Source: Streptomyces sp. NBC_00659 (GTDB taxonomy: Bacteria; Actinomycetota; Actinomycetes; Streptomycetales; Streptomycetaceae). Taken from it: DNA of 64,000 nt. Under the pieces are notes generated by a model. The model did no database searches. It worked only from the letters and a program-made list of their open reading frames with translations, and was not told where the DNA came from. Shown here in pieces: positions 16,196 to 39,397 of this stretch. Location: contig NZ_CP109031.1 in the NCBI RefSeq assembly GCF_036226925.1, positions 5,208,001-5,272,000 on the forward strand, in the 5' to 3' direction. Within the stretch, counting starts at the first letter, position 1. Each line of letters opens with the position of its first letter. The position numbers were made by a program, and so were the translations under genes.

Positions 16196-16201
16196 GACGG
16201 A

Positions 16202-16229
16202 GGCCCGGGGCTCGACCGAGCCCCGGGCC
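16202..16229. terminator. Hairpin terminator after the S9 peptidase
   Basis: A perfect 12-bp stem, GGCCCGGGGCTC with GAGCCCCGGGCC, and a GACC loop lie 6 bp after the stop codon. It also serves the convergent gene ending at 16271. Confidence 0.75.
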
Positions 16230-16270
16230 ACGTACCCGAGCGCTGCTGCCGCTGTCGGCCGAGTCCCGGG

Positions 16271-18265
16271 CTACGCCCCCGCCCGCTGCCGGGGCCGACG
16301 GCCGAGCAGTTCCGCCAGCCCTCGTCGCGTCGCGGCGAGGACCACGCGGTCCTCGGGCCGCAGGACATAGGTGGAGGGCAGGTCCCACACCAGCCGGGGA
16401 CCGCGCGCGCCGGACGCCTGGTCCGCCCGGCGCTCCTCGGGAGTCGCCGTGTCCAGCGCGAGCACGCGCCAGGCCCCCGCCCGGAACGCCTCACCCACCG
16501 TGCGCTCCTCCAGCTGCGGATGCCCGCCCACGTCCACCGCGGCGAACAGCAGCACCCGCCGCTCGACGGGAATCGCCCCGAGGATCTGTCTCCCCAGCAT
16601 CGCTCCGGCGAACGCGGGCGCGGCGAGATGGGACACGCTGCGGCTCCGGGTGAGCGCGCCGGGATGCGCGGCCCGGAGGGTGCGGTAGACCGCGGTCGCG
16701 AAGTCGTCGTCGTACAGCCGAAGTACGACGCGCAGGTCGGGGTTCAGGGTGCGGGCGGAGAGTACGGCTTCCAGGTTCATGGTGTCCGCGCTGGTCAACG
16801 CGAGCAGCGCGTGCGCACGGTGGATCTTGGCGGCCTCCAGCACCCCTTCCTGCGTGACGTCCCCCAGCACCACGGGCACCCGCAGACTCCGTGCCAGCGC
16901 GAGCCCCCGGGCCTCCGGATCGGCCTCCACGCACACCACGGGGATACGCAGCTCACGCAGCCGCGCCAGCACCCGCGTACCGATCTTGCCGACCCCGAGC
17001 AGCACCACATGTCCGGACAGCCCGCGGGGCGGCTTCCGCAGGGCGGTCCCGCTGCGGAAGGTGCCGAGCGCCTCCAGCACGGCGGCGAGCAGCACCGGCA
17101 GGAGCAGCAACCCGACCAGCCCCGAGCAGAGTTGGAGGATCTGCCGCCCGAGCGACTGCCCGATGGCCGGATCGTTGATGGCGAAGAGATCGAGCAGCGT
17201 CAGATAGGTCGCCTGGAGCGGGGGCTCCCCGGTGACCAGCATCGAGGCCACGGCGAGTCCGACCACACACGAGACGAGCCCCACGAACGACCAGCGCAGC
17301 CGCCGGGACAGCAGTGAGCCGAACCACGGGACGACCCCTCGTCCGGGGTTCAGTTCGGGACCGGAGTACGACACGTTCTCCAGGACGACGGTGCCGCGCC
17401 CGGTGGCGGCGGCCACCGCCCTTTCGTCGGGCAGGAGTTGGGGTCCCTGCGCGCCACTGCTCTCGGAACCGTCGGCGCCGGCGGGGTCGTTGGTCGTGGC
17501 GGAGAGCAACGCCAGTGTGCACAGACCCGGATCGGCGACTTCGCCCGGACGGGGCGGTGGCCGCTCCACCGCGCGCAGCATCAGCCCGTCGGTCTGGACG
17601 ACCTTGCTGGTACCGGTCATGGCGGTCGCGGCGAGAGCGGGCGCGGCCGTGTCGGCGTCGGACAGCACGGTGGTGGAGGTGTCGTAGACCTCGGTGTTCC
17701 CGCCCGCGGGGGAGGCGTCCGCCCCTGGGGCGCCCCCGGCGGCCAGGGCCGAGGCCTGGTCGAGGAGGGCTTCGATGTGCTGTCCGAGACGCCGGTTGTA
17801 GAGCCGCAGAACCAGCCGGATCCGCGGGTTGAGCCGCCGGGCGATGAGGGCGGAACGGATGTTGGTCTCGTCGTCGTCGTACACGAGGGCGAGCGCGGTG
17901 GCCCGATCGACACCCGCGTGGGCGAGCGTGAGTTCGGTGAGCTCGGCGACCTCCACGACCCGCTCGGATCCGGGCGGCTCGTCGCCCGCGCCGGTTCCTC
18001 CCCCGGCCCCTGCCCCTCCCCCGTTCCCGTTGCCGGAGGCCCGGTTGACCGCCGCGGACACCCGGTCGAGCAGGGCGGTGGCCCGCGCCCGCCCGACGAC
18101 CGGCAGCCGCACGCCGCCCTGCGCGGGCGGCACCACAAGGGTCACCCGCTCGCCGTACACCCCACGCAACTCGGCGGCCAGCCGCTGGGCCAGGGCGTCG
18201 TCCCCGGCCACCACCATGTGCTCGGCGGCGTCGCTCGACGCGCTCTGAGACGGAAGATTCCCCAC
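16271..18265 (-). CDS. Membrane protein with two TrkA-type Rossmann (RCK) domains
   Basis: About 664 aa if the GTG at 18265 is used; the ATG at 18217 (MVVAGDDAL) is an equally possible start and neither has a strong ribosome site. Order: an N-terminal TrkA-N-like domain (HMVVAGDDALAQRLAAEL, ALVYDDDETNIRSALIARRL), two membrane segments (WSFVGLVSCVVGLAVASML and LCSGLVGLLLLPVLLAAVL) around a pore-loop-like stretch, and a second Rossmann domain (GVGKIGTRVLARLRE, LVLGDVTQEGVLE pattern). It ends with an RCK-C-like region. This resembles ligand-gated potassium channels or CASTOR/POLLUX-type channels. The deleted IS3 copy ends only 85 bp upstream, so its native promoter may be lost. Confidence 0.82.
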   Translation of the reverse strand: MGNLPSQSASSDAAEHMVVAGDDALAQRLAAELRGVYGERVTLVVPPAQGGVRLPVVGRARATALLDRVSAAVNRASGNGNGGGAGAGGGTGAGDEPPGSERVVEVAELTELTLAHAGVDRATALALVYDDDETNIRSALIARRLNPRIRLVLRLYNRRLGQHIEALLDQASALAAGGAPGADASPAGGNTEVYDTSTTVLSDADTAAPALAATAMTGTSKVVQTDGLMLRAVERPPPRPGEVADPGLCTLALLSATTNDPAGADGSESSGAQGPQLLPDERAVAAATGRGTVVLENVSYSGPELNPGRGVVPWFGSLLSRRLRWSFVGLVSCVVGLAVASMLVTGEPPLQATYLTLLDLFAINDPAIGQSLGRQILQLCSGLVGLLLLPVLLAAVLEALGTFRSGTALRKPPRGLSGHVVLLGVGKIGTRVLARLRELRIPVVCVEADPEARGLALARSLRVPVVLGDVTQEGVLEAAKIHRAHALLALTSADTMNLEAVLSARTLNPDLRVVLRLYDDDFATAVYRTLRAAHPGALTRSRSVSHLAAPAFAGAMLGRQILGAIPVERRVLLFAAVDVGGHPQLEERTVGEAFRAGAWRVLALDTATPEERRADQASGARGPRLVWDLPSTYVLRPEDRVVLAATRRGLAELLGRRPRQRAGA

Positions 18266-24395: not shown

Positions 24396-25286
24396 CCAGG
24401 TATCTCGGTCAAGGTCCAGCGGGCCCGGCGGAAGCGGCCGGAACCCTGGTCGGTGGAGGAAGCCTGCGCCTTCCTGGAGAACGCCCAGATCTGGCGGGAC
24501 TACCTCTACCCGGCGTACGTCCTGATCCTCGTTCTCGGCCTGCGCAAGGGCGAGGTTCTTGGCCTCACCTGGTCGGACGTGAACCTTGATACGGGGGAGC
24601 TGCACATTCGCCACCAGCTACAGCGGGTCCGCCGGCGGCTGCTGCACACCGACACGGCCAAGACGGAGGCCTCGGAGGCGGTGCTCCCGCTGCCTGACAT
24701 CTGCCTGACTGCCCTCCGGCTCCGCCAGAAGGAGCAGCAGGCCGCGAAGGAGCGGGCCAAGGATCTGTGGACGGAGTCAGATCTCGTCTTCACCACCCGC
24801 TACGGCACCCCGGTCGAGCCGAGGAACTTCACCCGCGAGTTCGACCGCCGCTGCGAGCGCGCCGACGTCCGCCGTATCCGTGTCCACGACACCCGCCACA
24901 CCTGCGCATCGCTCCTGGCGGCCCTCGACGTCCACCCCCGGATCGCGATGCAGATTCTCCGCCACTCGGAGATCGCGGTCACGATGGAGGTCTACACGCA
25001 CGTGCCCTCTGCCGAGACCCGTCGGGCGCTCCGCAAGCTAGGCAAGGCGCTGGGTGGCGGCGGCAAGCAGAAGAAGGAAAAGAAGGGGAAGCGCAAGCAG
25101 CAAGAGGGGGCGGAAGAGCCGTCGCCGAGGGCGGCCAGCGAGAGCCATAGCGGTTGCTGTACTCCGCTGCTGTACGCACGACAGAGGCCCATTCGCGATC
25201 AAGCGAATGGGCCTCTGACCTGTGTCGGGGTGGCGGGATTTGAACCCACGACCTCTTCGTCCCGAACGCGGTCAGCCCCCTCGTGA
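24396..25286 (+). pseudogene. Tyrosine integrase remnant, N-terminus missing
   Basis: The frame opens after a TGA at 24393 and reads SVKVQRARRKRPEPWS..., with no good start codon at the family's usual place; a GTG at 24453 gives only the catalytic half. The catalytic residues are all present: Arg in LGLRKGEVLGLTW, HDTRHTCASLL, HSEIAVTMEVYTHV with the nucleophile Tyr. The arm-binding and core-binding domains (about 150-200 residues) are gone. The frame then runs into attL of the intact element. It is the int gene of an earlier element that used the same tRNA-Pro site. Confidence 0.85.
25177..25269. repeat. attL: 93-bp direct repeat with the 3' part of tRNA-Pro
   Basis: Contains the last 44 nt of tRNA-Pro (25226-25269, reverse strand) plus the downstream terminator hairpin (15-bp stem, 25183-25197 with 25204-25218). 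Identity to attR stops at CCCGAACG, inside the anticodon arm. The single mismatch falls in the hairpin loop. Confidence 0.92.
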
Positions 25287-25368
25287 CCTTGTTCCGGGGC
25301 CACGGGCCTGATTGTTCGGCTCCGACACTGTCCACTACCGTCCGGGACGGTCTTCGTGCGGTTGCCTC

Positions 25369-25391
25369 GTTTGGCCCCCCGTTTGGCCCCC
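25369..25391. promoter_or_regulatory. Tandem GTTTGGCCCCC repeats near attL (candidate Int arm sites)
   Basis: Two 11-bp units at 25369-25379 and 25381-25391. A matching degenerate pair lies beside attR at 44343-44365. Paired short repeats on both inner flanks are what integrase arm-binding sites look like. Confidence 0.5.
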
Positions 25392-25749
25392 GTACCCCGA
25401 CCTGATCGCACGAGTGCGCCACTCGCCAACCCCTTAGTAACCTCGCTATCTCATAACTGTTGTTTCGTCAAATCCATTTTTGCTTAAGCCAATTGGGTTG
25501 CACGGGTCATCTGAGTGGGTGAAGCTTCTCAGCAGTGACGCGAGACACGCGTGACTGCGCCCTCCCCAGAAGCGCCGACTTCTCCGGGGGGGAACAGCGA
25601 GGCCCACCCCAACGCCATTGTTTTGAGCGTCGAGGCCGGACTAACGCAGTGCTAGATGTGTCTCTTGCCGCTCTCACCGAAGCGGGCCAGATCCGCGGAG
25701 TGTGGGTGCGAGGGCTGGTTCGGCGTCTCCGGCTCCCGTGTGTTGTGCT

Positions 25750-25772
25750 CCGCGGGAGAGTGTCTCCCGCGG
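25750..25772 (+). promoter_or_regulatory. Strong hairpin in the leader of the ParB-like gene
   Basis: A perfect 10-bp stem CCGCGGGAGA/TCTCCCGCGG with a 3-nt loop ends 28 nt before the GTG start at 25801, just ahead of the AGGAGG ribosome site. It could be an operator dyad or an mRNA structure. The rest of 25287-25800 holds no supported gene; it is A+T-richer around 25435-25500. Confidence 0.5.
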
Positions 25773-25800
25773 TACAGGGAGCCCAATAGGAGGCTTTCTC

Positions 25801-27810
25801 GTGGTTTCCCCCGCCAAGAACAGCGGCGAGCCAACCGTCAACGGCGAGCGGACTGAGCTGTCCAAGCCCATCCGCCGCGTGCCCTCCATTCCGGACCCGG
25901 CTCATCACAAGGCGCTGCGTGCCGCGCTGAAGAAGCGCGGCATGGCAGACCGGGTGGCCGGAGCGATCTCCACCATCTGGACTGACCCGGATGCCGTGCT
26001 GCCGCAGATTGCCAATCCTCAGCGCCGACGCATCCCCGGCGCGTACCTGTTGGTGATCTCCGGCTCGGTGTACACATCGCGCCTCGTTCCCGACCCGCTC
26101 AATCCCCGCAACGCCGATCACGTCCCGTTTGCCCTTGCGCAGGCCATCGGCGCCCCGCCGGCCACCTTTGTCCCCGCCGTACAGGAAGGGGAGGGCGAAC
26201 TGGCAATCCACGTCGAAAGCCGAGAAGCGCTGATCGAGCAGGTTGACTGGGCGATCGAGACGACTCGGAACCGCAACAGCCCGGTCCCGGACATCGCCGA
26301 GCAGGGGATCATGGACCCGCCGATCGGTGTCGCCACCACCGTCTACTATGACGCCGCTGATGAGAGCCCGACCACACACATCGTGGTCCGCGAGGGTTCG
26401 AGCCGCACCAGCCACGGACTGTTCAACCTTGGGATGGAGGCCGAGAAGGTCCTGTTCGCCCTCCCCCGCACCGCCAGCGTGATGCAGGCTCATATCGATG
26501 ACATCAACAGCTACGTAGGCAAACCCGCCGAGGACATTCTCACCCATGAGAAGGCTGCGGTCCGCTGCGCAGTCACAGACTTTGAGCTCATCATCGGCGT
26601 TGTCCCGGACGTCCCGGGGGCGGTCGACCTGTCCCAGGCCATCAAGGCCCGTGTGGCGCAAGATCACCTCAACACCAAGGAGCCCTGGACCGACGCGGCG
26701 AAGCACACCGCGCTCGCCGAGGAGTGCCTCATCTCCGCGCGTGCGGCAGGCGTCATCCGGAGCAACGCCGAGTCGGACTGGCTGGCCGGCCGCCTCACCC
26801 CCAAGGAGGCCGCAGCCCATAAGCTCACGCACTTCGGCGACGACCGCGCGGCCCAGGCTGTGTACCTGTTCACCACCAACGAGCCTCAGGTCCACCAGGC
26901 AGTGCGCCAGCCAATCGCTCTCGTGCTCACCAACGAGCCGACTGGGCGCCGCAAGCGCACTCGCATCACCACCAAAACCAAGCTCCCGCTGGCTGTTGAA
27001 CTGATCATTAGGGAGAAGCGCGGCTCCGTCGCGGACGCCGAGCTCACCCGTTTCCGAAAGGCCCTCACGGACGCTCTGCCCGACGACCTGCAGAAGGCTG
27101 CATGGCAGCCCACCAAGCGGTCTCCTGAGGATCTCTACCAAGCCGCTTTGAAGGAGATGCAAGCAGGAAAGGAGGAGCGGCCGTCAAGCACCGAACTCCT
27201 GGTCCGTGCCGCGTACGTCCTGGCCAAGCGCAACGCGATCGGCGGCCCTCGCAACGACTTGGGGCCCGGCAGCGACCGCCGGAGCGCACGTGTGGTTTTG
27301 GAGGCCCTGGCCGACACGGAGTCGGGACTCCGCCATCTGCGCCAGGCGATTGAGGACGACCGGGCTGGCGATGAGCCCCGCCAGGTTGATGATCAGGGTC
27401 AGCCGCGCAAGGACGGAGAGGGCAGCGACCTGCCCATCACCAACGATTTCCTCCGCACTAGCCTCGCTCCGAAGGGCGGAGTGGCCCCGCAGCCCCTGTC
27501 CCCCACCGCGGCAGTACACGACCACTACAAACGCGGAGTCCAGGTCACCAAGGAAGCTCTCCGGAACCTGGAGATGGAGATGCGCAACCTTGCGGGTCTC
27601 AAGGATGGCAGCGGCATGCCGCTGATCGAGCGCGAGGGCCGTGCCCACGCCCGCCTGCTGATGGACAAGCTGCAGGATCTGGCCGCGGAAGCCCAGGAGT
27701 GGTGGGAGAAGGCCGTCGAGGCCCAGAGTACGACTGCCAACACGAACGCATCCGACGACGAGGAGAGTGACGCGGAGAGCGACGAGGAAGACGAAGGCGA
27801 GGCGGCCTGA
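25801..27810 (+). CDS. Large ParB-like-fold cargo protein, 669 aa
   Basis: The GTG at 25801 has ATAGGAGG 8 nt upstream. Residues about 85-210 resemble a divergent ParB/sulfiredoxin-type domain: RLVPDPLNPRN (95-104), EQGIMDPPIGVATTVYYD (167-184) and VVREGSSRTSHGL (195-207), where ParB has NPR, EQG.QPLVV and GERR. The remaining 450 residues are helical, with a long basic segment (RRKRTRITTKTK) and an acidic Asp/Glu tail. ParB itself is half this size, and no ParA is nearby. The gene overlaps the GIY-YIG gene by 1 nt (TGATG), so the two proteins probably work together. Exact role unknown; a DNA-targeting or defence module is my inference. Confidence 0.65.
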   Translation: MVSPAKNSGEPTVNGERTELSKPIRRVPSIPDPAHHKALRAALKKRGMADRVAGAISTIWTDPDAVLPQIANPQRRRIPGAYLLVISGSVYTSRLVPDPLNPRNADHVPFALAQAIGAPPATFVPAVQEGEGELAIHVESREALIEQVDWAIETTRNRNSPVPDIAEQGIMDPPIGVATTVYYDAADESPTTHIVVREGSSRTSHGLFNLGMEAEKVLFALPRTASVMQAHIDDINSYVGKPAEDILTHEKAAVRCAVTDFELIIGVVPDVPGAVDLSQAIKARVAQDHLNTKEPWTDAAKHTALAEECLISARAAGVIRSNAESDWLAGRLTPKEAAAHKLTHFGDDRAAQAVYLFTTNEPQVHQAVRQPIALVLTNEPTGRRKRTRITTKTKLPLAVELIIREKRGSVADAELTRFRKALTDALPDDLQKAAWQPTKRSPEDLYQAALKEMQAGKEERPSSTELLVRAAYVLAKRNAIGGPRNDLGPGSDRRSARVVLEALADTESGLRHLRQAIEDDRAGDEPRQVDDQGQPRKDGEGSDLPITNDFLRTSLAPKGGVAPQPLSPTAAVHDHYKRGVQVTKEALRNLEMEMRNLAGLKDGSGMPLIEREGRAHARLLMDKLQDLAAEAQEWWEKAVEAQSTTANTNASDDEESDAESDEEDEGEAA

Positions 27811-28175
27811 TGAAGAAGGCAACCTATATGGCGCTCGCAGAGCTATGCGGCCCTCACCTGCTCCGCGCCGTGCCCTACGAGCTGTCTCCGACCCCCGAAC
27901 TGATGCCCGACGCCTCATGTGCCGTCTACATCGCCATCGATGCCCGCGGCGGCGTCTGCTATGTCGGCTCCGTGTGCAGGCCTGGCAACAACCAGGGCCT
28001 GGCCAGTCACGTCAAGGAGTACCTCCACAACCTCCCCAAGACGGATAAGTGGAGCGGCGTGTACATCGTTCTCCTTCGGCCGGACACGCCGGAACCCGAG
28101 GTGAGGCGTATCGGTGGTGATGTCGCCGGCTGGCTGCTCCCGTACGACCGGGAGCGATGGCCGCGCGCGAGCTGA
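27810..28175 (+). CDS. Small GIY-YIG-like nuclease
   Basis: 121 aa from the ATG at 27810, overlapping the previous stop by 1 nt. The GIY-YIG pattern is visible: VYIAID at 39-44 in place of GIY, YVGSVCR at 51-57 (YIG plus the conserved Arg), His67, W81..VYIVLL, and Glu97 in PEVRRIGG as the possible metal-binding glutamate. The GIY-YIG core is normally about 90 residues, so this protein is little more than the nuclease domain. It would need a partner for target choice, most likely the upstream ParB-like protein. Confidence 0.6.
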   Translation: MKKATYMALAELCGPHLLRAVPYELSPTPELMPDASCAVYIAIDARGGVCYVGSVCRPGNNQGLASHVKEYLHNLPKTDKWSGVYIVLLRPDTPEPEVRRIGGDVAGWLLPYDRERWPRAS

Positions 28176-28329
28176 CACGACACAACGGTGCCCGGCAATC
28201 ACGTATGCCGGGCACCGCAGCCACGTTCGGGTTGCCATCCAAGGTCGGTCGTGTGGCGCCCCTACTCCTCCACCGCGTCATCCGTCACGGCTTCGACGTA
28301 CCTAGCCAGATCATCTACAGCCTTGCGCC

Positions 28330-29544
28330 TTACTGGGTGTGCGCAAAGCTCTGGTGTAGCCAGTCCCGCACTGACGCGGGCGTGGTCCGGCCGTGCTGCC
28401 GGAGCGCGTCGATGATGTCCCGCCCGCAGACGAGGGCGATCGGGTGTCCGTCCTCGTGCACCTCGCTCTGGACCTGTCGGTTGAAGTGTGAGGTGGTGAC
28501 GAGCACCCCGAAGTTGCGGTGCCGGATGCGGGAGATGAGGCGTGAGACTTCCCGGACACCGACGCTGTTGTCGGGCTTGTAGCACTTGGCTTCTAGGGCG
28601 AAGTCGATGCGGATCGGGGCTGCTGACGGTCCTAGCACGTATGAGCCCACGGCGTCTCGTCCGCCGTCGCGGCTCGGCCGCGTCACGTCCACGGTCCCGG
28701 TGGACGGGGCGATCAACCGCCAGATGGCTACGGCGCACTCTTCGAAGTCTGTCTCCCGCCCACGGAAGTAATCCCGGATCTCTGCCAGCATGGCTTCACC
28801 GGCCGGGTCATCAGGAAACTGCTGGGCAGTTGAGCGTATGACCGTCGTGGCCGGTGCGAGCAGCGGCCGGTAGACGCGGCTTTCGACCCACGTCCTCCAG
28901 ACGTCGGGGCATTCGCCCTCCAGTGGATTGCCGCCGGCCAGCACATGCCGGATCCAAGCACGTGGGATGCAGGCCTGGTCCAGCACGGTGAATCGCGCCC
29001 GATAGTTCTGGAACCGCGTCGGCCCGGTCGCACGCCAGATGGCCGAGAGTTCGTCATCGGGTGCCAGCGTCGGCCCGCCGGGGGCGAGCAACCCGCGGAA
29101 GCGCACTGCCCGGCCAGGCGCCGCCCTCTCAAACAATAGGAAAGGCGGAACGCCGCTCCCCCGTTCATGGGCTGTGCCATGAGAGAAGGCGAAGGCATCC
29201 CGCAGCAGTACGTTTCCCTTGCGCGGCGTTTCATGCAGCCCCGTGCCCGGGGTCCGGTTGTCGCCGTAGTAGGTGAAGGTGCCTGTCTCAACATCCAGGT
29301 AGTCCGGCCAGTCCACCGCTCCACCGCTGGTGTACAGCACGGCCAGACGAACCGTGCCCTTCGCCGGGGAACCGGCGTAGCGGAACCCTCCCTGGTTTCC
29401 GGTCCCGGGCAGCAACTTGCCGATGGGGTCATCGCCGGAGTGCCCAAGCGATCCACCGGCGTAGACAGCATCGACGAGCAAGTCGGCCTCACCGAGGTCT
29501 CCAAAGGAAACTTCAAGTGCAGCTGAGCGCGGAGCAGGGATCAT
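28330..29544 (-). CDS. AspBHI/MspJI-type modification-dependent restriction endonuclease
   Basis: 404 aa from the ATG at 29544. Residues 1-200 match the AspBHI N-terminal (SRA-like) module, e.g. LYTSGGAVDWPDYLD, FTYYGDNRTPG, RKGNVLLRDAF. The C-terminus is an Mrr-like nuclease: FEECAVAIWRLIAP, DGGRDA (D297) and EAK (E318, K320), the D-ExK metal site, then SRIRHRNFGVLVTTSHF. Relatives cut DNA at a distance from 5-methylcytosine and act alone as type IV restriction enzymes. No methylase adjoins it, as expected. It is cargo of the element, transcribed toward the GIY-YIG gene. Confidence 0.85.
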   Translation of the reverse strand: MIPAPRSAALEVSFGDLGEADLLVDAVYAGGSLGHSGDDPIGKLLPGTGNQGGFRYAGSPAKGTVRLAVLYTSGGAVDWPDYLDVETGTFTYYGDNRTPGTGLHETPRKGNVLLRDAFAFSHGTAHERGSGVPPFLLFERAAPGRAVRFRGLLAPGGPTLAPDDELSAIWRATGPTRFQNYRARFTVLDQACIPRAWIRHVLAGGNPLEGECPDVWRTWVESRVYRPLLAPATTVIRSTAQQFPDDPAGEAMLAEIRDYFRGRETDFEECAVAIWRLIAPSTGTVDVTRPSRDGGRDAVGSYVLGPSAAPIRIDFALEAKCYKPDNSVGVREVSRLISRIRHRNFGVLVTTSHFNRQVQSEVHEDGHPIALVCGRDIIDALRQHGRTTPASVRDWLHQSFAHTQ

Positions 29545-29888
29545 GACCTACGTTTACCAGATGCCTGTGACAGCAGCGTCACCCAAAGGACTTCCAGCAA
29601 GGGAGGCAGTTCCCCCGCGACAGTTCCCCGAGCCGTGCTGATCGGCAGCTTTACAGTCTTCTCAGGTCGACGCGAACAATCTTCGTCTGACCAGCGGAAA
29701 CGAGTATCCCCCGCTAAAGGGCACCTGTTGCCGTCCACGTGTCGTCCACGACGCGAGGTGCAACCTCTGACGCACCTCATCACAGCGCAGGAACGTGAAG
29801 GTAACGGGATTGGGCAACTCCAGTCACAAGACTGGACAACTTGGCTACGCTCAGCACACCGATCAAGGATGAGGGGGGATCGGCTATC
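29545..29888. other. Divergent promoter region between restriction enzyme and NTase genes
   Basis: About 340 bp, with G+C visibly below the core genome. A short dyad CCAGTC-ACAA-GACTGG is at 29820-29835. No coding frame looks real apart from extensions of the NTase frame. Confidence 0.45.
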
Positions 29889-30431
29889 TTGACGTGCTTG
29901 CCCGGGCTTGACCCGACCACGGGCCTGCTGCCGCCCGGCCGTTACGCAGTGTCCCTGGACGAGTTGTACACAGCGCTTGTGGAATCCACAGGCTCCGATG
30001 TTCGGCGGGCAATCTGGGAAGAATGGACTCGGCACCGGACGGCAGTCGAGGCGTTCACAGGGGGGATTAGCCGCATGTGGGTCGGAGGAAGCTTCGTCAG
30101 CAGCAAGCCTGACCCCAGCGACGTAGATGTGACGTACCTGCTGAGCGCCCAAGCCTACGATCGCCTGGATCGAGAGACCCTGGCCGACCTAGACGATCTG
30201 ACGCTCCGGGCGTGGTGCGTAGAGCAGAAGATGCGCGTCGATGCCCATCTGGTTCGGCTCCCCGAGAGGGTTCCTGTCTCACAGATGGTGCCTAGCCTCC
30301 TCAGCCAGGAGTCAAAACAGTCCTTCCGAGACTTGGGCCTCTACGATGAGGTGTGGCAGTGCATCAAGCCATCGTCTGCCCAGTCGGTTCCTGATGTATT
30401 GCGTCGAGGGTACGTGGAGGTGCTGCTGTGA
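29889..30431 (+). CDS. DUF6932-like nucleotidyltransferase-fold protein
   Basis: 180 aa from the TTG at 29889, chosen because GAGGGGGGA (29871-29879) sits 9 nt upstream and the product then begins MTCLPGLDPTTGLLPPGR, near the family's usual start. The pol-beta nucleotidyltransferase signature is clear: WVGGSFVSSKP at 64-74 followed by D78-V-D80, the GGS and DxD metal-binding elements. Many toxins, antitoxins and defence proteins use this fold to attach nucleotides to proteins or tRNA. The stop overlaps the next gene by 4 nt (GTGA), so the two are one unit. G+C is lower than in flanking genes. Confidence 0.75.
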   Translation: MTCLPGLDPTTGLLPPGRYAVSLDELYTALVESTGSDVRRAIWEEWTRHRTAVEAFTGGISRMWVGGSFVSSKPDPSDVDVTYLLSAQAYDRLDRETLADLDDLTLRAWCVEQKMRVDAHLVRLPERVPVSQMVPSLLSQESKQSFRDLGLYDEVWQCIKPSSAQSVPDVLRRGYVEVLL

Positions 30432-31417
30432 CACCGACACCGAACGTGCCCATGCCCGATCCATCAGACAAGATCGCGCTTCGCGCATGGATGAGACTTA
30501 TCCGAAACAGCCAAGCGCATGAATCTCGCGAGAAACCGAGCAATCCAGCAGAATTCGCCGCGATTCAACGTAATCGGCTGCTCAAATCTGTAGAGACAAC
30601 GGTAGAGCAGAGGCGGAGACGCCTTGAGGTGGCGTTGACTGGAGAGGTGACCGCCGAACATACGGTACCGGTCTCCACGCTCGGGTCATTTCTAACCAAC
30701 CTCCAAGAATCCGTTTCTGCTGTCGCTCAAGCCCTAACGGGACGACCGACAAGGTTTGCGTCGATTCCACGAGACATTCGCGAAGCAACTGCCCTGAGCG
30801 CAGCCGCTACCTTCCCATCATCTTTCGGTGTAGCGATGTTCGGACCGCCAGTTGAATCAGGAGAAGAAAACCTCTTCGGAGACATGTTCGGCGATCTGCG
30901 AACCGTCCTCGACGAGGCCGTGGACAAGGTACTTGACATCGCCGACCTTTCGGAGGGTGCAAGCCTGTCGGACGAACTCTTGGCGGAGCAACTTGCCCCG
31001 CTCGGACAAAGAGCAACGAAACACATCGGCCTGCTCACTGCCGGACTTACCGATGCGGGTGTCGGAGTGCGCGTTCACTGGCATACACAGCAAGGCCGTA
31101 TCCGCGAAAGCAACTGGACCCCTTCCGGCGTTCAAAGAGTGCGCTACCTGTGCGAGCACAGCGAGTTTACCGAGGCTGAGACCATCACTGTCGCAGGCTG
31201 GCTAGGCTCAGCGAGTTCGTTTCAAGGGAAGGTTGAGATCCGCACTGACAGCGGCGAACTAATCCGGGCAAGCACTGATGATGAGCTAACCGGCCAGCTC
31301 GAAAGGTATCTCAACAGGCGAGTTGAGGCCGAAGTAGAGGCAACGAGAGTAATATTCGCTGGCGGGCGTGAGCGCAATATTTATTCCGTCCTCAATCTGC
31401 GAACGGTATCCGAGTAA
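30428..31417 (+). CDS. Unrecognised 329-aa partner of the nucleotidyltransferase
   Basis: The GTG at 30428 overlaps the NTase stop by 4 nt, so translation is coupled. The N-terminal 110 residues are charged and helical (LRAWMRLIRNSQAHESREK, TTVEQRRRRLEVAL). A central helical region follows (LFGDMFGDLRTVLDEAVDKVLDIA), then a beta-rich end (GVGVRVHWHTQQGRIRESNW, TITVAGWLGSASSF). There is no membrane segment, signal peptide or known catalytic motif. This gene has the lowest apparent G+C in the window, which marks recent arrival. It may be the sensor, substrate or effector of the NTase; I cannot tell which. Confidence 0.7.
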   Translation: MTPTPNVPMPDPSDKIALRAWMRLIRNSQAHESREKPSNPAEFAAIQRNRLLKSVETTVEQRRRRLEVALTGEVTAEHTVPVSTLGSFLTNLQESVSAVAQALTGRPTRFASIPRDIREATALSAAATFPSSFGVAMFGPPVESGEENLFGDMFGDLRTVLDEAVDKVLDIADLSEGASLSDELLAEQLAPLGQRATKHIGLLTAGLTDAGVGVRVHWHTQQGRIRESNWTPSGVQRVRYLCEHSEFTEAETITVAGWLGSASSFQGKVEIRTDSGELIRASTDDELTGQLERYLNRRVEAEVEATRVIFAGGRERNIYSVLNLRTVSE

Positions 31418-31518
31418 GGGGTCTCTTGTTTATGCCGCAGGCGGGCATACAGCATGCGGCCGCGGCTCGCACTCCCGAACGTCGCCGCCATCAAAAACCA
31501 CCGTCAGGCAAAAGCTAG

Positions 31519-31546
31519 AGGCCCTGCGGAGCGATCTGCGGGGCCT
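31519..31546. terminator. Imperfect hairpin between convergent cargo and GNAT genes
   Basis: AGGCCCTGCGG pairs with CTGCGGGGCCT with one G-T and one mismatched pair. It lies in the 234-bp gap between the convergent genes ending at 31417 and 31652. Confidence 0.45.
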
Positions 31547-31651
31547 GGTCTGATGTTGCATTCGGTAGAATTTGAACCCGCAATCCGATAGAGGGAGAAG
31601 AAGGCGAGGGGTACGGCTGACAACGGCCGCAGCAAGCCGTGCCGACCCTGG

Positions 31652-32221
31652 TCAAGCCGCAAACGGAAGCCTCTCGGGCGCAGGCGTACGGTCCGTGAAA
31701 CCGTGGTCAGCCAACCGTGCCGCCCGCTGTGCGAGCCACCCGGAAACTCGAGGGCCGCCGTTCACTGCCCCACCCTCCCGGACAGTGCGAACGTGTGTAA
31801 AACCGTGGGCAAGGTAGTACTGCTGAAGCCCCTCGTTCGTCGTCCATGCGTCCAGGCGGAGCCACCGTGCGCCCGCACGTTGCGCACGGTCGCCAGCCCA
31901 GTCGAGCAGCCGACCCCCGAGGTCCTGCCCCGCGTACTCGCGAGCGACAGTGAGCTTGTTGACGAACATTGACGGTTCGGCCAGTTCGCCGTCCGTCCAC
32001 AGGCCCTCTTCGGCGTCCGGCGTGAGCGTGATCGTGCCGGCGGTCGTGTGCCCGTCCCGGAGCATGAACACGGTGCCTGCCTCGATCGTGGCCAACAGCT
32101 TGGCAGCAGGATAAGGGCGGCTCCACTGGTCGGACCCCAGATCACGCAACCAGGCTGCCGCTTCCTCGCGAAAGGTGAGCAACTTTGTCACGTCGTGCGG
32201 TTCTGCCGGAGCGATGATCAC
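31652..32221 (-). CDS. GNAT-family N-acetyltransferase
   Basis: 189 aa from the GTG at 32221, overlapping the end of the GntR gene by 4 nt (GTGA), hence one operon. The GNAT core is evident: EAAAWLRDLGSDQW, then FVNKLTVAREYAGQDLGGRLLDWAGDRA, where the acetyl-CoA loop Q/R-x-x-G-x-G/A reads AGQDLGG, and LRLDAWTTNEGLQQYYLAHGF. It would transfer an acetyl group to an amine. Linkage of a GNAT gene to the element's GntR regulator is common in Streptomyces AICEs, but its substrate is not known. Confidence 0.88.
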   Translation of the reverse strand: MIIAPAEPHDVTKLLTFREEAAAWLRDLGSDQWSRPYPAAKLLATIEAGTVFMLRDGHTTAGTITLTPDAEEGLWTDGELAEPSMFVNKLTVAREYAGQDLGGRLLDWAGDRAQRAGARWLRLDAWTTNEGLQQYYLAHGFTHVRTVREGGAVNGGPRVSGWLAQRAARLADHGFTDRTPAPERLPFAA

Positions 32222-32985
32222 GCGTTCTCGTTTCGGGCGGACAGCTCGCCGATCTCGTAGTTCATGCGGTTCAGGTCCCCCCGGAACGTCGTAATCGTGC
32301 ACCGGATAGGGCGATCCGCGGAGTAGCCGGTACGCATCCAGAGCATCACTGGCACGCCCGCGCCAATCTCCAGGAGTCGTGCCTCATCTGGCGTGGGCAT
32401 CCGGGCGGCGATCTCGTCGAAGTACCCGACCTGCTCGATCCCTCGCGATGCGAGATAGCGGGTCGTGCCCTCCTCTATGTCCCCTGGCTCAGCCAGTCGT
32501 GGTGAGGCGTCAATCAGCCAGGACGGATAGTAAGTCGCCTGAGTGGACCACGGAACGTCGTCCACGTACCGATGACAGAACCGCAGTACAGCCTTCGCGC
32601 CTGCGGATACATCGAGTCGTTTAGCAATATCAGTTGGAGCGGGAAGCATCTCAACGCGGAATGTCTGATGGGGCCGGCGTCCAGCGTTCGTGACGTCAGT
32701 TCTGTAGGCATCCCCGTTCTGCGGGAAGGTCAGATCCTCAAACCGTGTCGCGTTCAGCTCGAACACCTCGTGCGACTTGACCTCATACCCAAGCCCCTGG
32801 CTGGACGAGATCAGACCCTCGCTGACCAGCAGGCTTAGCCCATTGCGGACCGTGTTCCTGGACGCGTCGAATCGCTGCTGCAAGTCGTTCTCCGAAGGCA
32901 GCCGCGAGCCCGGCGCATAGGTGCCGTTGTCGATCTCGCGGCGCAGGACGTCAGCGACTTGGCGGTACTTCGGCTGCTTGGTCAT
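32218..32985 (-). CDS. GntR-family (HutC/UTRA) repressor of the element, KorSA-like
   Basis: 255 aa. I use the ATG at 32985 (MTKQPKYRQVADVLRREI) because GATGGGG lies 4 nt upstream; ATGs at 32994 and 32997 are in frame. The N-terminal winged helix (YAPGSRLPSENDLQQRFDASRNTVRNGLSLL) is followed by a UTRA effector domain (FEDLTFPQNGDAYRTDV, AKAVLRFCHRYVDDVPW, YFDEIAARMPTPDEARLLEIGAGVPVMLWMRTGY). Such regulators (KorSA in pSAM2) repress the transfer and replication genes and their own promoter. Two 17-bp operators lie just upstream. Confidence 0.88.
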   Translation of the reverse strand: MTKQPKYRQVADVLRREIDNGTYAPGSRLPSENDLQQRFDASRNTVRNGLSLLVSEGLISSSQGLGYEVKSHEVFELNATRFEDLTFPQNGDAYRTDVTNAGRRPHQTFRVEMLPAPTDIAKRLDVSAGAKAVLRFCHRYVDDVPWSTQATYYPSWLIDASPRLAEPGDIEEGTTRYLASRGIEQVGYFDEIAARMPTPDEARLLEIGAGVPVMLWMRTGYSADRPIRCTITTFRGDLNRMNYEIGELSARNENA

Positions 32986-33010
32986 AGACCCCATCATGAC
33001 GCACTCGCGC

Positions 33011-33027
33011 AGCTTGTTGGTACATGT
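33011..33027. promoter_or_regulatory. GntR operator site 1
   Basis: AGCTTGTTGGTACATGT. Its reverse complement matches site 2 at 14 of 17 positions, including the shared TGTACCAACAAG core. It lies 26 bp upstream of the GntR start, suited to autorepression. Confidence 0.65.
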
Positions 33028-33080
33028 TCGACCTAACCCCTTGACGGCTCACCGTCCGCGGGTGCAGCATCACTGCATCG

Positions 33081-33097
33081 ACTTGTACCAACAAGTT
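33081..33097. promoter_or_regulatory. GntR operator site 2
   Basis: ACTTGTACCAACAAGTT contains the perfect dyad ACTTGT-ACCA-ACAAGT. Together with site 1 it forms an exact 12-bp inverted pair (CTTGTTGGTACA...TGTACCAACAAG) 60 bp apart. A TTGACG at 33041 may be the -35 of a rightward promoter held between the two sites. Confidence 0.65.
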
Positions 33098-33220
33098 GAG
33101 CAGGTGGTGCAATGCCATCGTGTTAGCTCGATCTGCACTTACGACGCCCAGAGGAAAGCCCGCAGGGGTGAGTACGAAGGAAGCGTTCGTTGGTTGATAA
33201 CTCAACAGGGTGACTAGATC

Positions 33221-33530
33221 GGCGGGGTGAGCCCCGCCCCCGTGGCGACCGGGTCAGGTTCGCCGGCGGCCACTTCCCCGCACACCGGCTCTGGAGAACA
33301 GTCCTCGGGATCATCTCTCCCTCACGGGAGGTCAGCCCGTCGGATGCCACCTGGTGTGCGCCGCTCTGCTGGCGTCAGAGCAGTGACGATGACGCGCCCG
33401 ATTCCCCGGCTCGGGACCTGCCCGCCACGCAATGGCGGACCGGTGAAGCCGTGTCCCTGCGATCTGCGGGAGGTCGGTTGTGAACCGACGCCAACGACAG
33501 GCGCCGCCGACCGGACCCGCGGCCGGCGCC
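33221..33530 (+). ncRNA. Hairpin-rich leader, candidate structured RNA
   Basis: Between the GntR operators and the DUF6284 gene lie 630 bp without a convincing protein. Stems include GGCGGGG-TGAG-CCCCGCC (33221-33238), CTCCC-TCAC-GGGAG (33317-33330), GCTCTG/CAGAGC near 33362-33382, GTCGGTT-GTG-AACCGAC (33473-33489) and GGCGCCG/CGGCGCC around 33500-33530. The rightward promoter by the operators could transcribe it. It may be a long untranslated leader or an independent RNA. Function unknown. Confidence 0.4.
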
Positions 33531-33669
33531 TGAACCATCTGGGTCCACTTCTTGGCTCGCAGCCTCTTTGCTGCGGCCGGCTGCCTCTCCCGCCCGTCCG
33601 GTCGTCGCTTCGCGCGGTGGTCGTACGGACGGGAGCGCGGGGAGCCGGATCGTCCGACTTCAACGGCGC

Positions 33670-33699
33670 GCGGCCCCGGTGCTCGAACACCGGGGCCGC
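33670..33699 (+). terminator. Perfect 12-bp hairpin before DUF6284
   Basis: GCGGCCCCGGTG pairs with CACCGGGGCCGC across a CTCGAA loop, 36 bp before the ATG at 33735. It would end the leader transcript or act as an attenuator. Confidence 0.6.
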
Positions 33700-33734
33700 T
33701 TCGGGCCGTTCCTTCGCGAGAGGAACACGACCCA

Positions 33735-34004
33735 ATGAATCCCATCGTCACTGTTCAGGAAGCTGTTACCGCGTTCGCCGACTGGATCGAGCCGACGGAT
33801 GCGGAGCTGGACGCGATCGAGCGGGAGATGCCCGTCATCACGGCGGACGTCGACCTGTTGGACGCGCAGATCATCACGCTGGACCGCACGCCGACCGAAC
33901 TGGACATCCGGCGTATCCGCCGGGTCCGCAACCGCGTGCTGACGGCCCGCCGGGACCTGGCCAACCGCATCGCCGACGCGAGCAAGTCGGGTGGTGCGGC
34001 ATGA
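33735..34004 (+). CDS. DUF6284 family protein
   Basis: 89 aa from the ATG at 33735 with a GAGAGGAA site upstream. It is wholly helical and acidic at the start (VTAFADWIEPTDAELDAIEREMP), then basic (RRIRRVRNRVLTARRDLANRIAD), a pattern I recognise as DUF6284, a small protein standard in Streptomyces AICEs between the regulator and the spread genes. It overlaps the next gene by 4 nt (ATGA). Role unknown. Confidence 0.78.
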   Translation: MNPIVTVQEAVTAFADWIEPTDAELDAIEREMPVITADVDLLDAQIITLDRTPTELDIRRIRRVRNRVLTARRDLANRIADASKSGGAA

Positions 34005-34858
34005 AGGCGAAGACCGCTCTGCCCGCCGTCGCGATGACGGCGGTGTCCATGGTCCTCACCCTGGCCGTGGTCGTCATATGGCTCGGTACCGCGATGCCGT
34101 GGCCGGTCGCCCTGGTCGTCGGTCTCGGGATCGACGGCGGATGGCTGGCCACCCTCGCCTACGAACGCCGCCTCGCTGCGCAGGGCGACCACAGCCGCAC
34201 GGTGACCGGCGTCGGCTGGTCCTTCGGCCTCATCGCGGCCGGCGTCCTGGTGGCGCACGCGCTCACCGCCGAGGAGTCCACCGGCGCGTGGCTGGCCGTG
34301 GCATGGCTGCCCATCGCGGCCAAAGCCCTCTGGCTGGTCCACGGGATGTGGGAGCGCACCGCACTCACCCCCAGGGCCCTGGACGCGATCCAGGGGATCC
34401 AGCAGGAAGCCCGTGACGAGGCGGCCGTGGCTCGTGCCCGGCTGCGGGCGGAAGCGGGCACCGAGGAGACCCGGTTGACGGCCGTGACGGAGGCCGGCGC
34501 CCGCGTCGCCCGCGTCCAGGCCAGGACCGCACAGGCCCTCTCCCGGGCCTGGTCGACGCTGGAATCGGCACGGAACGGTGAGGACACCGGTAGGGCGCTC
34601 ACCAGTGTGACGAACCGCGTCACACCCGACGTCACACCCCGCTGGGAACTCCCCGTCTGGGGACCCGCCGAACCCGTGGCACCCGCCCTGAACGCAGCAC
34701 CCGCGCTCACCGACACTGCCCTCGACGACCTGGTCGACGAGATCCGGCACAGCGAGGTTCCGGCCCTGTCCTACCGGGAGATGGCCCTGCGGTTCCGCGC
34801 GGCCGGCCACTCCGCCTCCGAGGTCCGCCTGAGGGCCGCGTGGAAGCGTGTCGCCTGA
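34001..34858 (+). CDS. DUF2637 membrane protein (conjugation/spread-type)
   Basis: 285 aa from the ATG at 34001. The first 125 residues hold three to four membrane helices (PAVAMTAVSMVLTLAVVVIWLG, WPVALVVGLGIDGGWLATLAY, WSFGLIAAGVLVAHALTA, WLAVAWLPIAAKALWLVHG), as in DUF2637 proteins. A cytoplasmic Ala/Arg-rich coiled coil and a Pro-rich linker follow. The C-terminal domain DLVDEIRHSEVPALSYREMALRFRAAGHSASEVRLR resembles a helix-turn-helix. Such genes accompany TraB-type transfer and may help plasmid spread in the mycelium; this is inferred from family context. Confidence 0.82.
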   Translation: MKAKTALPAVAMTAVSMVLTLAVVVIWLGTAMPWPVALVVGLGIDGGWLATLAYERRLAAQGDHSRTVTGVGWSFGLIAAGVLVAHALTAEESTGAWLAVAWLPIAAKALWLVHGMWERTALTPRALDAIQGIQQEARDEAAVARARLRAEAGTEETRLTAVTEAGARVARVQARTAQALSRAWSTLESARNGEDTGRALTSVTNRVTPDVTPRWELPVWGPAEPVAPALNAAPALTDTALDDLVDEIRHSEVPALSYREMALRFRAAGHSASEVRLRAAWKRVA

Positions 34859-35241
34859 TGTCCGCAGCCTGGGGTAAGTGCTTCGACCCGACCGGCACCC
34901 GCTACGGCATCCCCACCTACCCGTGGTGCCTGGCCCCGGACGGGCTCGCCACCCGCCGCCAGTTACGTGCCAAGGGGCTGCGTCCGGGCGGGCAGGACAT
35001 CGCGGCGCAGGTCATGCGCGTCAACCGGCGCGCGGGCGGGGTCCGGGTCTCCTACCTCTACCGCCTCGACCTCGCCAAGCCGGTACGGCCGATGACCTCG
35101 CGGAAGTGGGGCGCGCTCGCCCTGGCGATGCTCGCCCGCCGCACCTGCCCGAAGTGCCAGGTCATTTACGGCTACTGCATGCCTCGCTCGCTCGGCATGT
35201 GCGTGCTCTGCGCCTACCCCGACGACCAGCGCGCCGCCTAA
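34858..35241 (+). CDS. RRQRL-motif zinc-binding protein
   Basis: 127 aa from the ATG at 34858 (overlaps the previous stop, TGATG). It has TRRQLRAKGLRPGGQDIAAQ, the RRQ-x-L signature of this AICE family, and a C-terminal zinc knuckle made of RRTCPKCQVIYGYCMPRS and GMCVLCAYPD. It is probably a small DNA- or RNA-binding helper of replication or transfer. The function is not established. Confidence 0.82.
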   Translation: MSAAWGKCFDPTGTRYGIPTYPWCLAPDGLATRRQLRAKGLRPGGQDIAAQVMRVNRRAGGVRVSYLYRLDLAKPVRPMTSRKWGALALAMLARRTCPKCQVIYGYCMPRSLGMCVLCAYPDDQRAA

Positions 35242-35270
35242 ACACCCCGATCGCACCTTGGAGTTCCGCT

Positions 35271-35501
35271 GTGACCAGCATCAACGCTGCTCCGAGCACC
35301 ATCGACTACGCGTGGCACGCCTGGGTGACTGTCCCCGGCGAGGGCCGCGCGTTCGCCCACGGCACCGTCACCGTTCCCGTCTCCTTCTGCTGGGACCGCG
35401 TCACCTGCGAAGTCGCGGCCTGGCTCGGCTCGCAGGGCACGACCGGGCGGCTCGCTGACATCCACCTCATCCTCGCCCCGCACGCCGGAAGGACGGACTG
35501 A
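35271..35501 (+). CDS. Small hypothetical AICE protein, 76 aa
   Basis: From the GTG at 35271 with TTGGAG 6 nt upstream. It reads as a single small alpha/beta domain (DYAWHAWVTVPGEGRAFAHG, RVTCEVAAWLGSQG). No family recognised. It is co-directional with the element's spread genes and 2 bp from the next gene. Confidence 0.6.
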   Translation: MTSINAAPSTIDYAWHAWVTVPGEGRAFAHGTVTVPVSFCWDRVTCEVAAWLGSQGTTGRLADIHLILAPHAGRTD

Positions 35502-35503
35502 CC

Positions 35504-35821
35504 ATGTCCAAGCCCGACACCCGACGCCTGGACCGTGCGATCCGCCAGACGAACCGCAAGCTCGAAGCGGTCCGCCGCGGCGAGCAGTGGCCGCTGACCG
35601 GCTCGGAGCGGCGCCAGATGCTCGCCGCGCTCGCCGGCGGCTCGTACCGGGTCATGCGCGGCAAGAGCACCACCCGCGCCGACAACCGGGTCGACGCCAT
35701 CTCCACCTCCGCCGAGACCCGGCTGATCGCCGAGATGACCGCGTTGCAGATCGAGCGTCAGCGCATCGTCACCGAGACGGCCCGCGCCAAGGCCGCCAAG
35801 AAGTCCTCGGGCTGGTGGTGA
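35504..35821 (+). CDS. Small basic helical hypothetical protein, 105 aa
   Basis: From the ATG at 35504. Highly basic and helical (TRRLDRAIRQTNRKLEAVRRGEQW, MTALQIERQRIVTETARAKAAKK), so nucleic-acid binding or coiled-coil pairing is likely. It overlaps the next frame by 4 nt (GTGA). Family not recognised. Confidence 0.6.
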   Translation: MSKPDTRRLDRAIRQTNRKLEAVRRGEQWPLTGSERRQMLAALAGGSYRVMRGKSTTRADNRVDAISTSAETRLIAEMTALQIERQRIVTETARAKAAKKSSGWW

Positions 35822-36135
35822 GCGTGGCCCCGCCGGGCCCGCGTTGTCCCGCGGCTCACCCCGACGACCCCACACCCTGCACCGGGCCGGTCGCGGTGAC
35901 CGTGCTGGACGCCGAGGGCGCCGGGGCCGACGGGTGCGAGCACCACGGCGCCCGGCTCCTCGCCTCCCTCGACCGGGGCCGCGTCTACGCCCTGCCTGAC
36001 GCCCCGGACGGCGCCGCCATCCGCACCTTCACCGCCGCCGACGGCACCCGCCCGTTCTGCTGGCTCGACGGCCCCCGCATCGACCCGTCCCAGCTCAGCA
36101 ACGCCGAAACCCGCCGCGCCCGGCACCGCCGCTGA
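35818..36135 (+). CDS. Small Cys/His-containing hypothetical protein, 105 aa
   Basis: The GTG at 35818 overlaps the previous stop (GTGA); a GTG at 35824 is also possible. CPAAHPDDPTPC and CEHHGARLLASL give a likely metal site at the N-terminus. The centre (ALPDAPDGAAIRTF) and the basic tail are unremarkable. It sits just before the translocase gene. No known family. Confidence 0.55.
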   Translation: MSVAPPGPRCPAAHPDDPTPCTGPVAVTVLDAEGAGADGCEHHGARLLASLDRGRVYALPDAPDGAAIRTFTAADGTRPFCWLDGPRIDPSQLSNAETRRARHRR

Positions 36136-36227
36136 TCAGCGCAACCCCTGCCCGCGCCACCGCCGGGCGGGGCCGCTGTCCCCTCATCTTCCGCCCCGTT
36201 CTCGGGGTAGTCAGGAGCCTTACCGCC

Positions 36228-38354: not shown

Positions 38355-38358
38355 CCCT

Positions 38359-38536: not shown

Positions 38537-38561
38537 AACCGTGCACCGGAAGGGATTCCGC

Positions 38562-39032: not shown

Positions 39033-39047
39033 CAAGGAGCCGCACCC

Positions 39048-39311: not shown

Positions 39312-39318
39312 CCACGCC

Positions 39319-39358: not shown

Positions 39359-39397
39359 GCTCGCCAGCATCCGTCCAAGGAACTGGAGACATCCAGC

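Follow-up and report, generated by a model that had tools for sequence, protein, structure and literature searches.

A ParB-like gene with a putative structured leader RNA and an optional GIY-YIG-type partner on actinomycete mobile elements

We examined a pair of coupled genes, and the DNA in front of them, in a 64,000-nucleotide stretch of Streptomyces sp. NBC_00659 (contig NZ_CP109031.1, positions 5,208,001–5,272,000; this whole stretch is the window, and coordinates refer to it). The first gene (25801–27810, + strand) starts with GTG and encodes P0001, a protein of 669 aa that appears to be ParB-like from its open reading frame (ORF), its homologues and tests with ParB profiles. A ribosome-binding site, AGGAGG, can be read at 25788–25793 (+), with 7 nt of spacing to the GTG. 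The second gene (27810–28175, +) overlaps the first by 1 nt and encodes P0002, a partner of 121 aa with a probable GIY-YIG fold, predicted from its ORF, profiles and an alignment of the active site to be catalytically dead. Directly 5′ of the P0001 gene is a leader of about 265 nt (25530–25798, +), for which covariation supports a structured RNA with 10 helices. An earlier note on this DNA had described the two genes, their 1-nt overlap and the ParB-like tracts of P0001, all of which were confirmed in the ORFs and family searches; the leader escaped it. Its proposal of a two-gene module holds insofar as the genes form a unit, and is limited in that a covarying RNA precedes them and 16 loci with the ParB-like gene lack a GIY-YIG partner.

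The two proteins

Scans of Pfam, PADLOC, NCBIfam and PHROGs gave nothing meaningful for either protein. The best matches are at the level of chance (P0001 to NCBIfam with E 0.19, P0002 to a PHROG with E 0.2), PADLOC 2.0.0 gives no family for either at E 1, and the scans of the four libraries recognised no RNA-binding domain in either. Two alignments were used for P0001: A4, with 35 rows, represents the ParB-like family, and A2 the window's own subfamily. One of the 35 A4 members gave a single weak match to PADLOC, a WYL model (E 0.021).

Sequence profiles and conserved motifs support a ParB-type nucleotide-binding core in P0001, made up of an NPR tract, a GI/GV loop and [ED]GxxR, followed by a long C-terminal part. 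DPLNPR (residues 98–103; 26092–26109, +) would be the NPR tract; N101 and R103 are present in 35/35 members, and the A2 match by hhalign falls here. QGIMDPP (residues 168–174; 26302–26322, +) is the likely equivalent of the ParB C-motif loop, placed by the hhalign match of A4 to ParB over positions 161–217. EGSSR (residues 198–202; 26392–26406, +) fits the GxxR phosphate motif, which is kept in 33/35 members (G199 in 33/35, R202 and the preceding acidic residue in 35/35). A survey of the ParB-CTPase fold gives GxxR as its Box II, a phosphate motif whose Arg was required to bind nucleoside triphosphate (NTP) (PMC12704722). The hhalign score of A4 against ParB was 32.7, compared with a maximum of 20.7 among 60 column-shuffled ParB profiles, and for A2, whose match covers 17 columns of the NPR tract, it was 28.0 with a null maximum of 21.5. 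A hidden Markov model (HMM) of chromosomal and divergent ParB proteins was also tested on 35 family members together with 233 other genes and 700 shuffled family members, 968 sequences in all; family members took 11 of the top 13 places, all matching within residues 145–238 around GxxR. The ParB fold anticipated by the earlier note thus finds support in the profiles and in the conserved GxxR motif.

Several results weigh against this assignment. Pfam ParB models, including ParB_N, were matched by none of the 35 members at E 1. The HMM matches are weak, the best domain scoring 9.6 bits, with an unrelated gene at rank 8 and a shuffled sequence at rank 10, and the other 24 family members ranked lower or had no score. 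P0001 itself is outside the top matches, and the ParB case for it is that of its family. The hhalign probabilities are low (34% for A4, and 12% for A2, the latter for the 17 columns of the NPR tract only), and A4 retrieved no ParB chain from the PDB sequences. A resemblance of the C-terminal part of P0001 to CdiA toxin chains in PDB (E 0.01) was set aside as a probable chance match.

For P0002, a GIY-YIG fold is supported by profile comparison, in agreement with the earlier note. The profiles were A3 (24 partner sequences, 12 of them from distant partners) and A1 (the window clade). A3 ranks all 30 UvrC proteins at 1–30 among 828 ORFs from 30 loci, and A1 ranks them at 1–30 as well, among the 447 of the 828 ORFs that it reported. 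The hhalign scores of partner against GIY-YIG were 38.5 and 41.8, with null maxima of 15.6 and 17.7 (60 shuffles each). Y40, Y51 and G53, forming the Y...YxG core, are present in 42/42 sequences of the window clade. Pfam PF01541 was weakly matched by 8/24 partners (best E 0.0065), and a search of PDB sequences with the partner returned UvrC fifth of six, with E 0.59.

An Arg, a His and a Glu are catalytic in the GIY-YIG superfamily. These three residues are intact in 18/18 distant partners (12/12 in A3, and six plasmid partners that were read by eye). In the window clade the positions of the Arg and His are taken by H67 and Y71 (28008–28022, +), found in 42/42 sequences, and that of the catalytic Glu by G102 (28113–28115, +; G in 34, A in 5, C in 2 and T in 1 of 42). 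The Glu position was assigned by spacing and by the family's own alignment, the joint MAFFT alignment having misplaced the C-terminal part of UvrC; the spacing, in which the UvrC Glu is followed by P at +9 and N at +12, is common to the partners of L059, L062 and L063. Because all three positions are replaced in 42/42 sequences while the distant partners keep them, P0002 is predicted to be dead, and in the window clade it is probably no nuclease, its catalytic residues having been lost. This runs counter to the working nuclease of the earlier note, which had also singled out E97 for alteration; that residue is E in just 28/42 and is not the position of the catalytic Glu, the equivalent of the UvrC Glu being residue 102, a Gly in the window. 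In a tree of 34 rows, the dead-site clade forms one branch (100/100) that is sister to three partner-less loci, and all nine group together (100/100). The tree excluded L003, L011, L047, L050, L051, L054, L056 and fragments, and its row for L006 was taken from 9809, 52 codons upstream of the likely start.

The leader RNA

Conservation across nine loci, which belong to four families, extends over the 265 bp 5′ of the P0001 gene and does not continue into the DNA farther upstream. Among the six partner-bearing loci (clade 1), mean nucleotide identity is 68.5% in the leader, 65.1% in the coding gene and 38.4% farther upstream. RNAalifold placed 58 pairs on the leader alignment. In A7, the alignment of the nine loci, which includes the three without a GIY-YIG gene (L008–L010), 93.7% of cells are paired, and 24 of the 58 pairs have changes on both sides. 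The covariation score is 0.462, compared with 0.255 for shuffled alignments (0/500 as high) and 0.08–0.10 when the structure is slid by one to three columns; the structure comes from the same alignment, so that the slid control is partly favourable by construction. A7 holds 67 G-U cells against 14 A-C cells, which points to an RNA of the + strand; by the same count a DNA site (an origin or clt) is not favoured. Folded alone, the window's leader has a modest z-score of −2.18, with 6/200 shuffles folding equally well, and the case for an RNA rests on covariation. On this evidence the leader of about 265 nt is taken to be a structured RNA.

A leader model, R1, matches the window with 235 bits (E 1e-60), the window being one of its training sequences. 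When 199 Streptomyces genomes were searched with the RNA model, it returned its own copy and two weak matches without a ParB-like gene behind them, which look like chance. Rfam 15 gave no match at the gathering score in 25180–26000; four weak matches were below it, none of them inside 25530–25800. Tandem Repeats Finder reported no tandem array in the leader (25530–25798), and three short repeats only in 25180–28400. Close to the gene, CGCGGGAG has two possible pairing partners: one CUCCCGCG, and a second copy of CUCCCGCG that is conserved less strictly. The alternative helix has eight consecutive pairs that are kept in nine sequences (columns 232–239 with 250–257).

A second clade of ten loci, five of them on plasmids, has a different covarying leader with 55 pairs, 19 of which have changes on both sides. 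Its covariation is 0.336, compared with 0.215 when shuffled (0/500 as high); a measure of further pair types was reached by 4/500. In the six closest loci nucleotide identity is 91.3% in the leader, 87.1% in the coding gene and 48.7% farther upstream. Searching with the model of this clade turned up one more copy, the eleventh, in L081 (283 bits), which was not among the training sequences, and there were no Rfam matches for this leader at the gathering score. Column-shuffle nulls for the leaders of other clades, in which gaps were shuffled too, are not trusted. A point against a single RNA-led family is that the two leader models fail to find each other's clade; a common origin is therefore not shown, and the two RNAs would either have diverged beyond recognition or be of separate origin.

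Two arrangements around leaders and upstream regions may be noted. In L081 (4801–6600) a 462-aa transposase-like gene, which we take to be IS110-like, lies between the leader RNA (4801–5120) and the ParB-like gene, and the N-terminal part of the partner is out of frame, making this a disrupted copy. In L060 and L061 the gene preceding the ParB-like one encodes a protein of 216 aa, presumably a DUF3800 protein; genes of this kind have known links to RNA motifs.

Distribution, coupling and genomic setting

The database search with P0001 gave at least 48 matches (itself and 47 relatives with 34–88% identity; 7999 candidates scored), and that with P0002 gave 42 (itself and 41 relatives with 55–79% identity). 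Apart from a few fragments, the relatives of both are of near-constant length. All NCBI names displayed were "hypothetical", and in UniRef one close relative of P0002 is named "GIY-YIG domain-containing". The P0001 profile matched 33 of 392 Streptomyces genomes, including 9 matched over about 50 residues only, which were not counted, and a separate scan with the P0002 profile found 16 places in 15 of the 392. Family members are thus present in at least about 31 of these genomes, 7 of them recognised by the partner only, with few candidates scored per genome. A close relative of the window's protein was found among the 392 only in the window's own genome, which was also the single genome with a family match in a phylum-wide sample of 396.

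The two genes are closely coupled, as the earlier note had supposed. The context of the GIY-YIG match was examined in 13 of the 15 genomes (G152, at a contig end, and G097:C90 are outside the count), and all 13 have a ParB-like gene of 627–723 aa directly upstream. Of 18 pairs, 16 have a spacing of −1 or −4 nt; that of L062 is +8, and that of L063 is −29, depending on the chosen start. Distances between ParB-like proteins correlate with those between partners (Mantel r 0.977, a value reached by 0/5000 permutations). Seven Streptomyces plasmid loci were fetched (H4–H8, H10 and H12; H3 is the same record as H10, and H3, H9 and H13 are outside the set), and all are on linear plasmids. Six of them have an annotated gene for 134–145 aa directly behind the ParB-like gene, five overlapping it by 1 or 4 nt and the one of L167 following after a gap of 23 nt. 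The remaining locus, L169, has a GIY-YIG partner that is frameshifted after 4914, which may explain why the record has no entry for this gene. By tblastn, two query proteins had no match in phage records and four query proteins matched several plasmids; viral contigs gave seven pattern matches and no relatives.

Against a fixed pair stand the loci with a ParB-like gene alone. No GIY-YIG partner was detectable by HMM, or by tblastn 2 kb downstream (best E 0.038), in 16 loci (L008–L010, L042–L047, L052, L053, L055, L057, L058, L060 and L061); by HMM alone, none was found in L051, L054 and L056; and none was found in L003 (whose 5-kb contig encodes a close relative), on the short contig of L011 or next to a copy on a Mesorhizobium plasmid. 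Because such loci exist, including L003 with its close relative of the window's protein, the partner is dispensable. The Mesorhizobium copy (L158, NZ_AP023250.1, 8836–10923) is 44% identical to the protein of L044 and has an integrase/relaxase region on one side and a type IV secretion cluster on the other; it represents transfer across phyla.

Decaying members of the family include a fragmented ParB-like copy in L032 (G375) and a gene with an in-frame TAG (G337:C24:4485-6386). In P0127, a protein of 274 aa encoded on a contig of 1.2 kb, a partner-like stretch (55% identity) is combined with a cNMP-binding domain (PF00027). About 3.5 kb downstream of its pair, L005 has a second ORF (15873–16343, −) that looks GIY-YIG-like by eye (VYTIW...VYAGMSGRG). 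For the GIY-less genes of L052, L055, L057 and L009, the host neighbours match the window at 8–16 kb and/or 44.5–53 kb, and these loci are possibly the same chromosomal hotspot.

In the window the pair is cargo of an integrated element bounded by an 81-bp att-type repeat. The left copy (25188–25268, no strand assigned) is the 3′ part of a tRNA-Pro and marks the left end of the element; the right copy (44380–44460, no strand assigned) overlaps a tRNA-Pro at 44416–44490 (−); the two differ by one mismatch in the printed letters. The P0001 gene starts 532 bp inside the left repeat. A tyrosine-integrase-like protein (43152–44333, +), probably that of the element, adjoins the tRNA-Pro and has phmmer matches in common with a PF00589 protein at 24453–25286. 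The mobile-element setting given by the earlier note is borne out by these repeats and by restriction genes near the loci, "AICE" being that note's label only. It had also reported a restriction enzyme beside the pair, which is a modification-dependent enzyme of AspBHI_N/Mrr type (28330–29544, −; PADLOC mREase_II with E 3e-181, Pfam AspBHI_N with 7e-54), and the absence of ParA: no ParA-type Walker-A pattern occurs in the six frames of the element (25188–44460). Beyond the window, 38/41 loci have no ParA-type motif within the stretches covered, a ParA-type ATPase is nearby in L009 and in the Mesorhizobium plasmid locus, and a third motif match, in L057, is not clearly ParA.

Restriction- or defence-type genes are found near 8/9 loci of the window clade and its sister (L003 and L011 being left out). 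They are the AspBHI/Mrr gene in the window, NaeI and HNH in L002, a DUF4365-NB-ARC-TPR protein in L004, HNH in L005, Vsr with a C5 methyltransferase in L007, a partial type IV match (residues 4–89 of 357) in L008, NaeI in L009 and GmrSD_N in L010. The exception is L006, where an integrase-like gene, just below the Pfam cut-off, adjoins the pair. Among 57 neighbouring genes, PADLOC gave 25 models at E 1e-5, mostly one gene each and not all located.

Interpretation and alternatives

The components are known folds; what is new, as far as tested, is to see them joined with a large covarying RNA and with a partner that varies naturally between active, dead and absent. Among titles and openings of abstracts in the openly accessible literature, subscription papers and preprints being outside this scope, the searches listed none that describes this pair or this RNA. 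The partner series suggests that the ParB-like protein, with the RNA in the window's lineage, is the core of the system. Our favoured explanation, which we put forward tentatively and at somewhat less than even confidence, is an RNA-led operon on actinomycete mobile elements with a ParB-fold switch and an optional GIY-YIG subunit, probably acting in conflict between elements. The ParB-fold protein would bind NTP, and this switch would let it load on DNA or sense it. Its arm for engaging DNA would be the GIY-YIG subunit, which would have begun as a nuclease and here would no longer cut, having a DNA-binding or structural role. The leader RNA would control expression, probably by alternative CUCCCGCG/CGCGGGAG/CUCCCGCG pairing shortly 5′ of the ribosome-binding site. 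A conflict or defence function, which we infer, would mean that the module restricts or excludes competing DNA, as do the ParB/Srx-fold GmrSD and Osa, the closest precedents for such a mode of action. On the other side, the 8/9 count of neighbouring restriction- or defence-type genes is a raw count, uncorrected for how rich in defence genes such elements generally are.

Several known systems share parts of this arrangement. GmrSD (DUF262/DUF1524, type IV restriction) likewise combines a ParB/Srx-fold NTP-binding subunit with a nuclease subunit, in one or two proteins; unlike the present pair its nuclease is HNH rather than GIY-YIG, and the part of the source at hand mentions no leader RNA for it (PMC4619093). 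Neither GmrSD_N (PF03235) nor its HNH subunit has a match in P0001 or P0002. DndB, of the phosphorothioate systems, is also a ParB-superfamily protein in DNA-conflict loci, and Dnd-type neighbourhoods include URI/GIY-YIG nucleases as well (PMC10853773); P0001 differs in lacking a family match in the four libraries, no search having been aimed at dnd genes by name. The orphan ParB-CTPase-fold proteins resemble P0001 in their GxxR P motif, the lack of ParA and their frequent location on mobile elements; the term GIY-YIG is absent from the paper on them, and the present family differs in having no ParB Pfam match (PMC12704722). In TIGR-TasA with TasParB, too, a ParB-like gene shares its operon with an RNA system (PMC12045711); of the TIGR-Tas features, no Nop-domain match was found in six scanned proteins and no array in 25530–25798. 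SNIPE also uses a GIY-YIG domain in defence; unlike P0002 it is a membrane-anchored DUF4041 fusion with an essential catalytic Glu, and no ParB link is mentioned in the sections available (PMC13190303). ParABS differs in its ParA, for which the element has no Walker-A match, and in the LG[RK]GL ParA-binding motif (0/35 A4 members); type III toxin-antitoxin systems differ in their tandem-repeat RNA, which the leader (25530–25798) does not contain. Osa, a plasmid fertility inhibition protein of the ParB/Srx superfamily, is a further example of this protein type, acting in conflict among conjugative plasmids. We know of no GIY-YIG partner or leader RNA for Osa.

A rather unlikely alternative is that the leader RNA, beyond any regulation in cis, acts in trans as part of a ribonucleoprotein, in which it would bind one or both of the two proteins (ParB-fold and GIY-YIG) and serve as their guide, scaffold or inhibitor. 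The length of the RNA (about 265–320 nt), with 10 covarying helices in each of the two clades, would suit such a role, as would a leader slightly better conserved at the nucleotide level than the coding gene, its presence in three GIY-less loci, the large annotation-free gaps 5′ of the plasmid genes (in a gene table that is incomplete) and the occurrence of ParB-like genes in operons with RNA-guided TIGR-TasA loci (PMC12045711). Yet the end of the RNA adjoins the ribosome-binding site and some of its helices exclude one another, as in a cis-regulator; the leader holds no tandem array, and the library scans recognised no RNA-binding domain in either protein. We regard as unlikely the broader claim of a new class of RNA–protein system, in which a folded RNA of about 265–320 nt would be a working part beside a ParB-fold NTP switch and an exchangeable GIY-YIG arm. 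This arm would be a nuclease, a pseudo-nuclease (in the window lineage) or absent, according to lineage; the dead arm would bind and mark or block target DNA, and cutting might be done by the neighbouring AspBHI/Mrr, NaeI, HNH or Vsr/methyltransferase proteins. It is also unlikely, if anything slightly more so, that an orphan ParB segregates or stabilises mobile elements with the GIY-YIG partner as a DNA-binding accessory. Residence on an integrated element and plasmids, with no match in phage records, is compatible with partition, as are the ParA-type ATPases near the L009 and L158 copies; the lack of a ParA-type motif in 38/41 loci within the stretches covered (the L057 match not being clearly ParA) and of the ParA-binding motif from all 35 members speaks against it, as do the intact catalytic residues of the distant partners and the restriction-gene neighbourhood.

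A role unrelated to conflict, in which the pair would process or protect the DNA of its own element during conjugation or replication, seems improbable to us. The family is carried by elements and plasmids and not by phages, the gene starts close inside the left att repeat in the window, and in L006 the pair adjoins an integrase-like gene. Integrated elements are common in Streptomyces, and a transfer function fits poorly with a close relative in just the window's own genome, and with the restriction- or defence-type genes at 8/9 loci. Least probable to us is that P0002 is still an active nuclease through a rebuilt site, by which the steered nuclease of the earlier note would hold in the window clade. 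Conservation of E95 (41/42) and E70 (42/42), which together with the invariant H67 and Y71 could in principle form another active site, weighs against a dead partner; the three positions have, however, changed together exactly where the 12 distant A3 partners keep R, H and E, and a Glu-to-Ala change in the GIY-YIG domain of SNIPE abolished defence (PMC13190303).

The favoured RNA-led operon would be of wider interest. The ParB fold is now viewed as a general NTP switch with few partners known outside partition, and here a large ParB-like family on mobile elements, unmatched by the four libraries, is joined in many lineages by a small GIY-YIG partner and is preceded in two clades by a large covarying RNA absent from Rfam 15. 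The natural series of partners offers natural controls for testing the role of a ParB-fold switch outside partition. A role in defence or exclusion, if it has one, would make it an additional class of module overlooked by homology libraries.

Two further features in and beside the element concern neither gene of the pair. The PF00589 protein at 24453–25286 (+) is the C-terminal part of a tyrosine integrase whose 3′ end crosses the left att repeat, and was probably left behind by an element that occupied this tRNA-Pro site before. At 29841–31417 (+) two coupled genes, the first of which is DUF6932, match the PADLOC candidate pair PDC-M63A/PDC-M63B (E 7e-11 and 4e-11), a candidate second defence unit within the same cargo.

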